A DNA stretch of 28,851 nt from a virus: positions 1-28,851 of the IMG/VR virus record IMGVR_UViG_3300037963_002381, one strand, 5' to 3'. A program made the position numbers and the translations under genes. Of this stretch, positions 24,185 through 28,851 are shown one piece after another; the first letter of the stretch is position 1, and each line of letters begins with the position of its first letter. Under the pieces are notes generated by a model. It was not told the origin of the DNA, searched no databases, and was given only the letters and a program-made list of their open reading frames with translations.

Positions 24185-24360
24185 TTGTACCCCCCGCCTT
24201 TCTCCTTGTACCGCTTGGCGAGCATCTGGGCTTTTCGAGCAGACCATTGACCGGGCTTGCCGCCTTTACCACCGGCTTTAATAGCCGCAAAAAGCCGTTT
24301 ACGCATCATAGGCTTGGTGTAGTTGCCCGCCTCGTTGACCCTGCTTTTTTTCTCAGACAT
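24181..24360 (-). CDS. Small basic conserved protein, GKPGQWSARKAQ family (59 aa)
   Basis: This short gene holds MSEKKSRVNEAGNYTKP, MRKRLFAAIKAGGKGGKPGQ and WSARKAQMLAKRYKEKGGGY, then Lys and stop. The segment GGKPGQWSARKAQMLAKRYK is, from memory, strongly conserved in many phage and bacterial small proteins of unknown function. It starts eight bases inside the HNH-like gene and its TGA overlaps the next GTG. Conservation of the motif makes it a confident gene despite its length. Roughly a quarter of its residues are Lys or Arg. Confidence 0.85.
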   Translation of the reverse strand: MSEKKSRVNEAGNYTKPMMRKRLFAAIKAGGKGGKPGQWSARKAQMLAKRYKEKGGGYK

Positions 24361-24580
24361 TGTACTTCTTCCGGTTGGTAGTGCGGCTTACAACGCGAAG
24401 ATTTTTGCTGCTGTTGGTGCCACCTTTGCTCAAAGGTTTTTTGTGGTCAACCTCGCGGGGGTCACCTTTTTTTAGGCCTACTTTACGGCGAGCGCGGTTT
24501 CGCATAGCGCGGAGAGCGCGCTGCTTAGGGGTTCCGTGATAAGCACCTTCGCCGTTGGGGCCGTAGTCGCGTTCAGCCAT
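24353..24580 (-). CDS. HNH-like endonuclease, small (75 aa)
   Basis: The C-terminal half carries the HNH signature EVDHKKPLSKGG (Asp45-His46), then NLRVV (Asn60) and NRKK (Asn69). These are the expected metal and catalytic positions. The Cys pairs seen in some HNH proteins are absent, which is normal for this short phage type. The N-terminal half is Arg-rich (RALRAMRNRARRKVG) and likely binds DNA. HNH proteins near terminase genes are known to assist cutting at packaging sites in several phages, which this position suggests. The ATG overlaps the previous stop (TGATG) behind AAGGA. Confidence 0.8.
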   Translation of the reverse strand: MAERDYGPNGEGAYHGTPKQRALRAMRNRARRKVGLKKGDPREVDHKKPLSKGGTNSSKNLRVVSRTTNRKKYNV

Positions 24581-25252: not shown

Positions 25253-27757
25253 CTACGCCTCGCCCCACCCAAGCTTCTCCGAAATACGCTCTGCGGGAGA
25301 CGCAGGTCGGGCTTCAAAACGCTGCAAAGTGATTCCCTTCCAGACGCGGGCTGACTTGCGCTGACCGTTAATCTTGACCTTGGTCACAGTAGACTTGTAA
25401 TCACGTTCAGATAGCTGACGGCAGAAGAGCGAGTAACTCTGGGGGCGTTGCTTCATGTCTTCACACCATTCCGCGTAGTCGAGATAAAGCTGTTTCTTGG
25501 GTATGGTGGCTTCGGGATGCAGTGAGCAGCGATCTTCCATATACTCGGATAAAACATCCATTTCCTCGCGGTACTCATTCGTAGCGAGACGTACTTTCTG
25601 CGGTGGCTGTAGGCCGTCTTTCTGCCATGCCAAGCAGCCCTCAACCATTCGGTTCAATATGCCCGGAGCTTCTTTCTTTAACTTCTCAATAAGGAAGGGG
25701 TCTTTCTTGGCGGAGGACACTTTTCGGTGCCAAGGGATTCGTAATACACGTCGCCAGATGCCCTCGTCGTTGCCCTTGATGATGGGCCGGTGATTGGCTG
25801 CAATGCACAGCTTGTGCGAAGGCATAAACTGGTAAAAGTCCTGACGCATCTTGCGGGCGCGGATGGGGTCGCTGCCTGTAAGCTGCTTGATAAGAGCCTC
25901 CGCAAATGGCTTGCCCTTCTCTACCTCCGCGTTAGCTACAAAGCGGGCGCCCTCTAGGTCGGCGACTTCAGTAGGGTGGGACTCATTGTGCTTCGACATC
26001 AGTAGGCCCGGTGCGCCCTGAATAGCGTATTCGCCCAAAACGTGCATTAAAACTAGCAAAGCGGTTGTTTTGCCGTTTCCTCCAGTGCCCTCCATGAAGA
26101 GAAGAACTTGCTCAGTGACGAGACCCGTAAGGCAATAGCCGAAGAAACGATGGAGGAAATCGACGACTTCTTGGTCCTCCTCCATCGCATACATGATGAA
26201 CTCATCCCACAGGGGGCACTTGGCGCTCACGTCCCATTTGACTGGGCTGATTTTAGTGATGAGGTCGGTCCTGTCGTGGTCCGACAGTTTCCCGGTCCTA
26301 AGATCTAGGGTTCCATTCGCTAGGTTAAACAGCCAAGGGTCGGCGTCTAGCCTGTCGGCAGAGATGCATACCTCAGATTCAGTTGACGCCACCGACACCA
26401 TCGCGCTAAGAGAGCGGGAACTTTCACTGCGAAGTGCGTGGCGCTGTATAGCGCGCTGCCTCTGGCGATCGGTTTCGGCCTCTGCTTCCGAAAAAATCAA
26501 ACCGACCGCAGACTTTGCACAGCGTTGGATGGCCCCGTCAGTATCAAGCCGCCACCTAGTGTCGTCGAAGAGATACCATGCGTTGTGACTCGCCGAGTAA
26601 CGTATACTTGTTCCAAAGGCGTAAATCAGACGTTTCGCGTTCCCGAGGTCCGTAAGGTTAAAGTTGTTCGCGGACGAAGGCGAAAGGGGGCCTTGGTGTC
26701 CATCGTCATCTCCGCCTCCACCGTTAAACGGCGTGCCCGCAAGCTCTTGAAGGGTTTGCCATCCAGTGCCGTTGCCATCTTCGTCTTTTTGGTGTCCCTT
26801 GCAGTTCTTGTGAAGGCACCCAGCGACAATAGCTCCGCTGTTAAACTGAAGAACGTAGGCACTGCGGTCGGTATGGTCGGGGTTCCAAGGGCAAACGTCG
26901 AACACCCACTTACGTCCCTTGTCTTGCCAAGGAACAAAACTTCCCGCTGAGGGAAAATGTGTTCCCATCCACGTCGTCAGAGCCTCACGGTCCTCCGGGG
27001 CCAAAACTTCACGCTTATTCTCCTTGGGAGAATCAGCTAGTAGCTCTTGCAGTTGCTGCTGCTGAACGACTTTTTTCGGAAAATCTTTAGAAATCAAGTG
27101 CGAGACACGCCAAGGCCGCTCCTCAGTATTTTCACCCTTCCGTGAAAGTGTGCCGTAAACCTTCCATATGCGAGAAGGGTTGTAGACGCTTTGATCGACG
27201 ACCGCCAGAGCGTCTCGGCTAAACCGGAACGCGAGATACTCCAGAACCTGCCGATGCAGATCTGCCGTGAGGCCTTCGACTTCGTACATCAGGTGGTAGC
27301 CGTTGCCCGAATCGCCGAAAATCGGCTGAGGCCAGCCTTGGGACTCTAAGAAGGCTCTGATTTTGCCGATCACAACCAGCGCGTTCTCTTTTTCACGGGC
27401 GTTGCTCGACGTGTTGACCGGCCTAGAGGGGTCAACGTCAATCAATAGCCACCGAATCTCTTCGACATCGGTGTCTTTAGCAGAAGAACCACGGCGCGCA
27501 AGGCCAATGTTGTTGCGCTGATTCGCGGAAATGTCCTTTCTAAGGGGATTTGGGGTGAAGTACACACCTCTAGCCCCTTCTTTGACGAGATGTGCTGCTG
27601 CTTCTGCCAGCATATCGACATCATCGTAGAATCCGTTGATGGTACGCAGGCCGTTGTCCACTGGAACGCCAAGAGCGCGAAGCTCAACTACCTGACCCGG
27701 ACGCAAAATCATCTTGAGGCCCTTCTTGATGCGGGCCTCGCTGGTTTGTACTGCCAT
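25253..27757 (-). CDS. Primase-helicase (archaeo-eukaryotic-type primase fused to D5-like SF3 helicase)
   Basis: An 834-residue two-enzyme protein. The primase part shows LLIDVDP (metal ligands Asp107 and Asp109), GDSGNGYHLMY (His155) and VVDQSVYNPSRIWKVYG. A Cys/His cluster follows (Cys289, His295, Cys314, His316, Cys319) and probably binds zinc. The helicase part shows a D5_N-like region (DADPWLFNLANGTLDL), Walker A EGTGGNGKT (556-564), Walker B-like RFVANAEVEKG (605-615), sensor-like KLCIAANHRP (649-658) and an Arg pair in GIWRRVLRIPW. It likely primes and unwinds the phage genome at an origin. The ATG at 27,757 follows GGGGGA, nine bases after the HTH gene's stop. Confidence 0.93.
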   Translation of the reverse strand: MAVQTSEARIKKGLKMILRPGQVVELRALGVPVDNGLRTINGFYDDVDMLAEAAAHLVKEGARGVYFTPNPLRKDISANQRNNIGLARRGSSAKDTDVEEIRWLLIDVDPSRPVNTSSNAREKENALVVIGKIRAFLESQGWPQPIFGDSGNGYHLMYEVEGLTADLHRQVLEYLAFRFSRDALAVVDQSVYNPSRIWKVYGTLSRKGENTEERPWRVSHLISKDFPKKVVQQQQLQELLADSPKENKREVLAPEDREALTTWMGTHFPSAGSFVPWQDKGRKWVFDVCPWNPDHTDRSAYVLQFNSGAIVAGCLHKNCKGHQKDEDGNGTGWQTLQELAGTPFNGGGGDDDGHQGPLSPSSANNFNLTDLGNAKRLIYAFGTSIRYSASHNAWYLFDDTRWRLDTDGAIQRCAKSAVGLIFSEAEAETDRQRQRAIQRHALRSESSRSLSAMVSVASTESEVCISADRLDADPWLFNLANGTLDLRTGKLSDHDRTDLITKISPVKWDVSAKCPLWDEFIMYAMEEDQEVVDFLHRFFGYCLTGLVTEQVLLFMEGTGGNGKTTALLVLMHVLGEYAIQGAPGLLMSKHNESHPTEVADLEGARFVANAEVEKGKPFAEALIKQLTGSDPIRARKMRQDFYQFMPSHKLCIAANHRPIIKGNDEGIWRRVLRIPWHRKVSSAKKDPFLIEKLKKEAPGILNRMVEGCLAWQKDGLQPPQKVRLATNEYREEMDVLSEYMEDRCSLHPEATIPKKQLYLDYAEWCEDMKQRPQSYSLFCRQLSERDYKSTVTKVKINGQRKSARVWKGITLQRFEARPASPAERISEKLGWGEA

Positions 27758-27766
27758 GTCGTCCCC

Positions 27767-27991
27767 CTAGAACAGCGATTCTGCGCTTTGAATCTGCTCA
27801 AACTCCTCATCGTCGAACTTTGTGTTGCGAAGCAGTTCGGTGATGGCTAGTTCTGGTATCCTAAGCTGCCGACCCACGCGATACGCGCGAAGGTCTTGTC
27901 TTCGGACTAACCGCTGGACTGTTCTGGTACTAACCTTGAGCCTCTCCGCGACTTCGCGCACGGAAAGAAGCACATTCGATGTGTTATTCAT
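27767..27991 (-). CDS. Excisionase-type helix-turn-helix DNA-binding protein (74 aa)
   Basis: LLSVREVAERLKVSTRTVQRLVRRQDLRAYRVGRQLRIP is cut here into its parts: LLSVREVAERLKVS is helix one and turn, TRTVQRLVRRQDL the recognition helix, and RAYRVGRQLRIP the wing. This is the compact MerR/excisionase fold. The C-terminus is acidic (DDEEFEQIQSAE). I chose the ATG at 27,991 behind GGAGG; an in-frame GTG at 28,018 lacks a good site. It is the first gene after the repeat-rich region and directly precedes the primase-helicase. It may bind the nearby GTCTAC sites to control replication or transcription, or act as an excision factor. Confidence 0.88.
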   Translation of the reverse strand: MNNTSNVLLSVREVAERLKVSTRTVQRLVRRQDLRAYRVGRQLRIPELAITELLRNTKFDDEEFEQIQSAESLF

Positions 27992-28073
27992 GTGGCCTCC
28001 GTGAGTCTCAAGTAACACAAGCGACTGAAAGGTGCAAGTGCGTCTTTTCGCGCCAAAGACGACAGCCTGAAGT

Positions 28074-28347
28074 GTCTACAGTGTCTACAGTTTTGCGTAG
28101 ACAGGTAAACACGCGGTTGAAGCCCCGGAATCGTGAGGCTGTCTACATGTCTACGCTTTTTTCCCTATTATGAGTCCTACAACGTGTATTAGGGTACTAG
28201 GGGTAGGGGTGGTATGTTTAACTGACGTAGTGCTTTATATAGGGGGTGTAGACACCGTAGAAACGTAGACACCTTAAAAAAGCGACGGAACAACCTGAGG
28301 TATTTTGTCTACACCTTGTCGGGCTAAAGTGTAGACACCCGTAGACA
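28074..28347. repeat. Array of ten GTCTAC/GTAGAC sites (iteron- or operator-like)
   Basis: GTCTAC starts at 28,074, 28,083, 28,141, 28,149 and 28,307. Its reverse complement GTAGAC starts at 28,097, 28,248, 28,265, 28,331 and 28,341. Eight of the ten extend to GTGTCTAC or TGTCTACA or a close variant. Pairs are spaced 8-17 bases apart, about one helical turn in some cases. Chance would give far fewer than one copy in this length. Both orientations occur, unlike a CRISPR or simple tandem repeat. Confidence 0.85.
28235..28241 (-). promoter_or_regulatory. Weak -10-like element TATATAA within the site array
   Basis: The minus strand reads CCCTATATAAAGC immediately downstream of a GTCTACACC site. 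No good -35 is present at 16-18 bases, and GTCTAC sites occupy that position. It may be a promoter for the helix-turn-helix and primase genes that depends on a bound protein. Evidence is thin. Confidence 0.25.
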
Positions 28348-28360
28348 AACAGGAAAATAC

Positions 28361-28370
28361 GCAAATTTGC
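28361..28370. repeat. Perfect 10-base palindrome GCAAATTTGC
   Basis: A perfect AT-centred palindrome 14 bases beyond the last GTAGAC site, in the AT-richer part of the region. It could be a dimer-binding site or part of a strand-opening segment. Confidence 0.5.
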
Positions 28371-28398
28371 TGTCGTGTTGAGTCAGTAACCCGGAAAT

Positions 28399-28440
28399 AA
28401 AAAAAACTCTGCGAAAACCGGCGATGCTTTTGTGGTTTCG
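28399..28440 (-). terminator. Weak terminator-like hairpin plus T8, pointing left
   Basis: On the minus strand, CGAAACC and GGTTTTCG can pair (7 bp with one bulge, 14-base loop). CAGAG and then TTTTTTTT follow five bases later. It would stop transcription coming from the right before it enters the site array. The stem is short and the T-run is set back, so confidence is low. Confidence 0.3.
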
Positions 28441-28511
28441 ACGACGGCCTCATGTGATGCCTTAGGGGTTGACGTGACGTGCCCACCTTTCGACGCGGTC
28501 TAGCCTACCCG

Positions 28512-28540
28512 GTGACGTGTCAGATCCGGTACACCGTCAC
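28512..28540. repeat. Inverted repeat GTGACG...CGTCAC
   Basis: GTGACGTGT and ACACCGTCAC face each other across 11 bases. They pair in all but one bulged base. It could form a hairpin or a dimeric protein site. No T-run follows, so it is not a typical terminator. Confidence 0.45.
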
Positions 28541-28544
28541 GGGG

Positions 28545-28575
28545 GGTCGTGTGGTGGCGTGGTCGTGTGGTCGTG
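28545..28575 (+). repeat. G/T-rich direct repeats GGTCGTGTGGT
   Basis: GGTCGTGTGGT occurs at 28,545 and 28,561, and a partial copy GGTCGTG at 28,569. The plus strand here is almost free of A, a strong local strand bias. Confidence 0.6.
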
Positions 28576-28612
28576 CGCCGGGTGCCGGCCGGCCTCACCC
28601 CCCGATATTGAT

Positions 28613-28647
28613 GTCCGAATATTTTGACGCGTCCGAATATTTTGACG
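28613..28647 (+). repeat. Tandem direct repeat GTCCGAATATTTTGACG, two copies
   Basis: Two identical 17-base copies (28,613-28,629 and 28,631-28,647) are separated by a single C, giving an 18-base period. Each has the palindromic core AATATT. Exact duplication at this spacing is a typical layout for a DNA-binding protein site. Confidence 0.85.
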
Positions 28648-28655
28648 TTCGGCGT

Positions 28656-28667
28656 TCCAGATCTGGA
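28656..28667. repeat. Perfect 12-base palindrome TCCAGATCTGGA
   Basis: A perfect palindrome eight bases after the tandem 17-base repeat. Another perfect palindrome, GGGTCGACCC, lies at 28,711-28,720, and CCCTAGGG at 28,731-28,738. Clustered palindromes suggest dimeric binding sites or a recombination/origin region. Confidence 0.55.
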
Positions 28668-28817
28668 CATGCCCCTATTCGGCTCTGTAGTGCCCCTGTG
28701 AGGCGTCCGAGGGTCGACCCTATACCCTAGCCCTAGGGGACGCCTAGAACAGTTATCCAGTTTCAACCTTGGTTTTCGGCCGATTTTAGAAAAGATCGAA
28801 TAATCGCGATCGCCCCC

Positions 28818-28846
28818 TTGACTGTGGGTGCCAGATATGCAATGAT
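28818..28846 (+). promoter_or_regulatory. Possible rightward promoter at the window edge
   Basis: The plus strand reads TTGACT, a 17-base spacer, then AATGAT. This is 5 of 6 and 4 of 6 matches to the sigma70 consensus. It points out of the window, which would make the non-coding region a divergent control region. Nothing downstream is visible to confirm it. Confidence 0.3.
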
Positions 28847-28851
28847 TGTCA

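Follow-up and report, generated by a model that had tools for sequence, protein, structure and literature searches.

The closest described systems are phages whose origins are served by primases of the P4 family. In phage P4 the C-terminal winged helix of the alpha protein binds the repeats at the origin (PMC4234260). In the record of Streptococcus phage Sfi21 a feature (misc_feature 34487-34784) is annotated as "origin of replication, 302 bp non-coding region, phage inhibitory sequence". On the strength of this database annotation and of earlier literature, we take this region to be the replication origin of Sfi21. It lies downstream of the P4-family primase gene orf382, primase and helicase are encoded by separate genes, and its sites carry a GTTAC core. 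They are arranged as inverted tandem pairs around an A+T-rich gap, followed by a single site and by inverted sites at distances of 45 and 14 bp. Bacillus phage phi105, which encodes one of the nearest cultured primase-helicases, contains TGTTAC sites in the same orientations in the 269 bp past its primase gene (L169:3944-4212, NC_048631.1), and no report of this repeat region as an origin was found. This region of phi105 and a region of EV3 (L168:3851-4153) are probable origins downstream of P4-family primases, and no feature is annotated at either place. The P4-family phages A9Y, EV3, T25 and AcaML1 also have tandem blocks in inverted orientation on either side of a gap, and the sequences of their sites are unrelated.

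The DNA analyzed here (the window) is an entire IMG/VR record of 28,851 bases, a fragment of the genome of an uncultured, probably marine phage, which ends at position 28851. A first-pass annotation had described an array of ten GTCTAC copies upstream of a helix-turn-helix (HTH) gene and a primase-helicase gene, and had considered an iteron-type origin or a multi-operator switch. The array was verified: GTCTAC occurs 18 times in the record, ten copies are located at 28074-28346, five on each strand, and the other eight are scattered, so that the density elsewhere is not equal. The densest 274-bp cluster in 300 Markov shuffles of the window contained three copies, and no 6-mer reached more than eight copies in any of 2000 shuffles of the non-coding end. 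The described TGTCTACA extensions of GTCTAC were also found. The nearest site is 82 bp from the start of the HTH gene (27991), and the primase-helicase gene follows directly. Taken together with the comparisons below, the array is most likely the replication origin of this phage, of the iteron type and of the kind served by P4/D5-family primase-helicases. The features of the locus are as follows.

25253..27757, minus strand: gene for a P4/D5-family primase-helicase of 834 aa (P0002), assigned by profile matches
25256..25594, minus strand: C-terminal domain of the primase-helicase, an RFX-like winged helix predicted by a structure model, proposed site reader
27767..27991, minus strand: gene for an HTH_17 protein of 74 aa (P0001), a BldC-Xis-like winged HTH
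27770..27784, minus strand: C-terminal tip of the HTH protein, AESLF; the ending in relatives is xDLF, which in L013 and L044 reads QLDLF
28010..28037, minus strand: likely HTH-primase promoter, TTGCAC-16 bp-TTACTT, conserved in aligned relatives (alignment)
28074..28088, plus strand: block E, two GTCTAC sites 9 bp apart (28074-28079, 28083-28088), defined by sequence and geometry
28097..28102, minus strand: site D, a single GTCTAC that starts 14 bp from the closest site of block E; the distance to block C is 44 bp
28141..28154, plus strand: block C, two GTCTAC sites 8 bp apart
28155..28247, no strand: central gap, A+T 0.57 versus 0.47 for the record, candidate unwinding region
28157..28174, minus strand: CTCATAATAGGGAAAAAA beside block C, kept in most lineages of the clade with 57-100% identity
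28248..28270, minus strand: block B, GTCTAC at 28248-28253 and 28265-28270, with the one-mismatch TTCTAC at 28257-28262 between them
28307..28312, plus strand: lone opposite site of block A
28331..28346, minus strand: tandem sites of block A, 10 bp apart
28362..28384, minus strand: ACTCAACAYGACNNCANTTTTT, conserved, just outside block A and overlapping the non-conserved palindrome GCAAATTTGC

The middle site of block B is a perfect GTCTAC in three relatives (L003, L006, L009), and many relatives have three or four tandem sites in block A. Two neighboring elements of the first-pass annotation fared less well. The palindrome GCAAATTTGC is present at 28361-28370, but was discarded as a functional element because it is not conserved in relatives, and the A-rich stretch exists at about 28396-28407, but lies outside the array. 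The proposed promoter was derived from the alignment and was missed by a sigma-70 consensus scan, which yielded nothing convincing. A search for DnaA boxes (TTWTNCACA, at most one mismatch) in 27398-28851 was negative, and thus the locus does not qualify as a DnaA-dependent iteron plasmid origin. No RNA family matched and no tRNA was found. Beyond the array there is a perfect 17-bp direct repeat, GTCCGAATATTTTGACG, at 28613-28647, with copies 18 bp apart.

On the primase strand the window thus contains block A (two sites and one opposite site), block B (two or three tandem sites at 8-9 bp), a gap, block C (two inverted tandem sites), site D and the inverted sites of block E. The layout that is conserved in relatives consists of tandem sites, an A+T-raised gap of 75-113 bp and inverted tandem sites, followed after 44 bp by a single site and after another 14 bp by inverted sites. 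The gap between blocks B and C is enriched in A+T in every lineage measured (0.57-0.80 versus 0.42-0.54). The positions and orientations of the sites can be compared directly:

Sfi21 origin, one strand: 63> 71> gap 148< 156< 201> 215< 235<
phi105, 3' of the primase gene: 44> 53> gap 143< 152< 196> 209< 219<
window: 131> 148> gap 247< 255< 299> 313< 322<

Site D is 45 bp away from block C and 14 bp away from the closest E site in Sfi21; the corresponding values are 44 and 13 bp in phi105, and 44 and 14 bp in the window. Among the relatives the C-D distance is 40-44 bp (55 bp in one case) and the D-E distance 14-15 or 23-24 bp. The C-D-E pattern was obtained in 213 of 400,000 random placements of ten sites, with tolerances that had been set after the data were seen. 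The three systems also share the initiator family, as the proteins of Sfi21, phi105 and the window all score above the curated cut-off of TIGR01613 (phage/plasmid primase P4 family; 293 bits for the window protein, cut-off 108.7). The window protein appears from its sequence to combine an AEP-like primase with an SF3/D5 helicase, and phi105 encodes a P4-family primase-helicase that is about 39% identical in the helicase half. The iteron-type origin of the first-pass annotation is therefore well supported by a nearly base-exact geometry shared with Sfi21 and phi105, by the adjacent P4-family initiator, and by the retention of the array in about 30 relatives.

Several differences have to be weighed against this reading. 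The array is located upstream of the HTH gene, in contrast to Sfi21 and phi105, in which the repeats are downstream of the primase gene; a position directly 3' of the primase gene is the usual layout, but not a defining one. Neither phage has an HTH gene adjacent to the primase gene; Sfi21 lacks block A, and no counterpart of it was seen in phi105. The middle bases of GTCTAC differ from those of GTTAC-type sites, although several relatives have GTTAC or GGTTAC, and the GTTAC core is not strictly defining since it differs in other P4-family phages. The A+T rise in the gap of the window is modest (0.57). Lastly, the GC-skew minima of all six long relatives are 4-7 kb away from the array, and thus the skew, which had been suggested as a check, did not pinpoint it. 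These minima are confounded with gene direction, and therefore the GC skew is not decisive.

Relatives were found by searches with the primase-helicase and comprised loci with 54-100% identity and a second group with 42-44%. The array keeps its position in about 20 loci of the former and about 10 of the latter, upstream of the HTH/primase-helicase pair and often with another hexamer. GTCTAC itself occupies this position in nine loci (seven or eight distinct sequences). The relative L004 (74% identity) seemingly had no array, and k-mer counts then revealed 13 TTCTAC sites. As L004 branches inside the GTCTAC clade of the tree, its array must have changed as a whole. The k-mer counts also yielded the motifs ACTACG in L011, GGTTACA in L013 and L014, TGTTACA in L044, AACTACAAA in L054, ACCACAAA in L039, TCGTCTACA in L041 and L015, TACTAC in L017, and GACTAC in L046 and L052. 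The alternative hexamers among the relatives include TTCTAC, TACTAC, GGTTAC, TGTTAC, AACTAC and GACTAC. The 42-44% group has GGTTACA arrays and the HTH gene, with only four clear copies in L113; in L120 (42% identity) only four copies of TGTCTACT were seen. The first-pass annotation had named loss of the array in close relatives as a result that would speak against its significance. The hexamer is indeed lost in some of them, but the array itself is kept, and a search for GTCTAC alone would have led to a false report of array loss.

Across the relatives, the last half of the site, YAC, is constant, and the first three bases are variable. In one clade (L014, L022, L039, L053, L054, L044, L041, L015 and L021), which is monophyletic in the primase tree (88/99), the YAC core is on the opposite strand at every site, with an unchanged block plan. 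Near-palindromic sites such as TGTTACA may have served as a bridge for the polarity reversal of all ten sites. The mobility of the site sequence upon a fixed plan seems to be general. As the window covers only part of a genome, whole-genome tests were moved to longer relatives of 46-55 kb. With the motif of the respective lineage, 7-13 sites were counted at the array, versus at most three per 300 bp elsewhere, and five long relatives contained no tandem site pairs outside the array.

We lean towards the primase-helicase as the main reader of the sites. That the geometry recurs in phages with no HTH gene next to the primase gene points to the C-terminal winged helix as the reader of the core. 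The best matches of the model of this domain were RFX DNA-binding domains (Z 10.7 and 9.3, rmsd 2.4-2.7); the corresponding domain of the ASFV PrimPol was matched with Z 6.6-7.6, and a sequence search matched ASFV C962R and another solved DNA primase (7ola). RFX half-sites contain GYAAC, to which the GTTAC core found in Sfi21 and phi105 is reverse-complementary, a correspondence that we take as a lead only. Phage P4 provides a parallel in that its primase-helicase also carries a C-terminal winged helix for origin repeats; the primase of P4, however, belongs to the bacterial Toprim type.

The small HTH protein scored above the cut-off of PF12728 and also matched excisionase models (TIGR01764, PHROG 66). 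The predicted structure has a small MerR-like winged HTH fold, the nearest folds being Pukovnik Xis (Z 8.3) and BldC (Z 7.7, rmsd 1.2-2.0). A match to the CAP repeat of 8vd6 was set aside, as it was summed from weak repeats, and the RdfS, SCCmec Cch2 and SaPI systems were retained as analogies only. BldC of Streptomyces occupies direct repeats of 9 bp in a head-to-tail fashion (PMC5859096), and the sites of the array recur every 8-11 bp, which is compatible with head-to-tail binding, nothing more. BldC and phage Xis share the small MerR-like fold, but are known as regulators or excision factors and not at replication origins. In SGI1, an HTH_17 gene (S004) shares an operon with the replication initiator gene rep; however, the iterons there are 17 bp long and downstream of rep, and Rep belongs to a different family (PMC7433901). 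Matches to the HTH protein in Marinitoga virus 2 and in a faecal contig have unrelated contexts, and those in BlueFeather and Marvin have other gene contexts. In Shambre1 the HTH gene is directly upstream of the primase gene, with only three weak GGACA repeats in a gap of 86 bp.

The array could also be an origin at which this 74-residue protein is the main reader, bound head to tail on the tandem sites like BldC and recruiting the primase-helicase. In plasmid RSF1010 a separate protein, RepC, recruits the primase-helicase. The folds and the spacing described above are in line with such an arrangement, as is the joint occurrence of HTH gene and array in all relatives and in Oceanospirillum phage PD0307 (see below). 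In addition, the flipped-core clade has different sites, but the same C-terminal primase helix, and L004, the sole TTCTAC member of its subclade, carries the HTH change R17K. This arrangement is nevertheless doubtful: in phi105 and Sfi21 the geometry and the GTTAC core occur although no HTH gene adjoins the primase gene, and covariation between site and HTH protein, controlled for phylogeny, was nil (partial r -0.02). The same analysis was null for the C terminus of the primase, and therefore the reader cannot be named from covariation. It is tempting to speculate, though rather unlikely, that there are two readers, the RFX-like domain of the primase-helicase for YAC and the HTH protein for the three variable bases, the latter also bringing the host sliding clamp via its tip. 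If so, changes in the HTH protein would switch the whole array in step and would generate mutually blind (orthogonal) origins among relatives.

The C-terminal tip of the HTH protein may provide a connection to the host. An LF near the C terminus is present in 24 of the 29 listed HTH proteins, versus 5 of 294 other open reading frames of long relatives; four further listed proteins end in LV, and the PD0307 protein has neither. The linker ahead of the tip differs widely in length among relatives. The clamp-binding motif is QL[S/D]LF (PMC12309361), and LF residues of TrfA of plasmid RK2 are required for clamp binding and for replication from oriV (PMC4980987). The tips of L013 (QLDLF) and L044 (QLDLFN) match the motif at Q1, L4 and F5, AESLF of the window lacks Q1, and QFDLF or DDLF is found elsewhere. 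TrfA is likewise part of an iteron system with a clamp-binding motif that is needed for replication (PMC4980987). However, TrfA is the large initiator itself, whereas in the present case a 74-residue protein bears the motif, and the copy in the window lacks the first Gln. By this analogy a link of the tip to the host sliding clamp is plausible; a partner other than the clamp is possible.

The multi-operator switch of the first-pass annotation, in which the HTH protein would control divergent early and late operons from the array, found no support as the main role and is improbable. It would agree with the location of the array between divergent gene clusters in long relatives, with the regulation of transcription by BldC-like proteins, some from distant positions, and with a small repressor gene ahead of the primase gene in pRN1 (PMC4234260). 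However, the array does not cover the likely HTH promoter, but lies about 70-340 bp upstream of this promoter and start, which disfavors simple repression; the absence of tandem site pairs elsewhere in the five long relatives argues in the same direction, and the spacing matches the annotated origin of a phage without the HTH gene, Sfi21. In a 54-kb relative, the far side of the array encodes a fusion of UDG and DNA polymerase A, a Sak4-like protein, an exonuclease and a helicase, and the primase side leads to the terminase and, as judged from gene order, to structural genes. The fusion is encoded at L060:11234-13693 (minus strand), as a DNA polymerase A with an N-terminal uracil-DNA-glycosylase-like domain. 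In the window, a small HNH-like protein is encoded at 24353-24580, between the primase and terminase genes.

As the terminase genes share the transcription unit and the HTH fold resembles packaging proteins of E. coli PICI and of viruses, the array might be a packaging site (pac/cosB) with the HTH protein as a small-terminase-like protein. This is very improbable: in unrelated genomes the HTH gene is a partner of the primase and not of the terminase, and Sfi21 bears the same geometry at its replication origin, distant from the terminase genes. The matches to excisionase models would fit an excisionase array beside an attachment site, which is extremely improbable in view of two negative results. 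Nine records, which included fragments and six sequences of 46-55 kb, contained no tyrosine integrase or serine recombinase domain (PF00589, PF00239), and a scan of bacterial genomes gave only distant primase relatives and no near-identical prophage. An attachment site thus fits the data poorly, and the same is true for a simple operator over the HTH promoter.

A cultured counterpart is phage vB_OsaM_PD0307 (OL658619.1), in which the HTH protein is 43% identical, but the primase-helicase only 20%. It shares with the window an HTH_17 gene, a primase-helicase with a D5_N domain and a CTAC array in a divergent gap, and six of the ten copies of TT[AC]CTAC in its genome are within 363 bp. This array (L165:43286-43648) lies between the HTH-primase operon and a divergent gene annotated as neck protein; the parts of the phage's paper that were searched contain no mention of the repeats. 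In contrast to the window, the array geometry is less regular, the HTH protein lacks the LF tip, and the N-terminal half of the primase is Prim-Pol/PriCT_2. The published "origin at 300 nt" of PD0307 looks like an end effect of the linear plot.

With the array as replication origin, the following sequence of events can be proposed. Copies of the adjacent primase-helicase would bind the repeats, probably via the C-terminal RFX-like winged helix, and would assemble over the inverted tandem blocks B and C that flank the A+T-raised segment. They would then melt this segment, load as replicative helicase and prime DNA synthesis, with blocks D and E as a conserved accessory cluster that keeps a fixed distance. 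In this phage group, block A and the HTH protein seem to have been added. The latter probably assists assembly or regulates the operon, and it may connect to the host sliding clamp.

The array would thus be ordinary in kind, a phage origin, but an unusual variant: an added HTH gene lies downstream of it, one further block is present, and a fast-changing site sequence is combined with a fixed geometry. This geometry extends from probable marine phages to phages of Streptococcus and Bacillus. It would provide a rule for finding origins in phages with P4-family primases, by fixed geometry and not by sequence. About ten site sequences on one conserved layout form a natural series, which makes the joint change of specificity of origin and initiator testable, as well as the role of HTH_17 genes beside primase or rep genes. 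Direct tests are possible in the cultured relative PD0307 and in phi105 and Sfi21, which have the layout in common.
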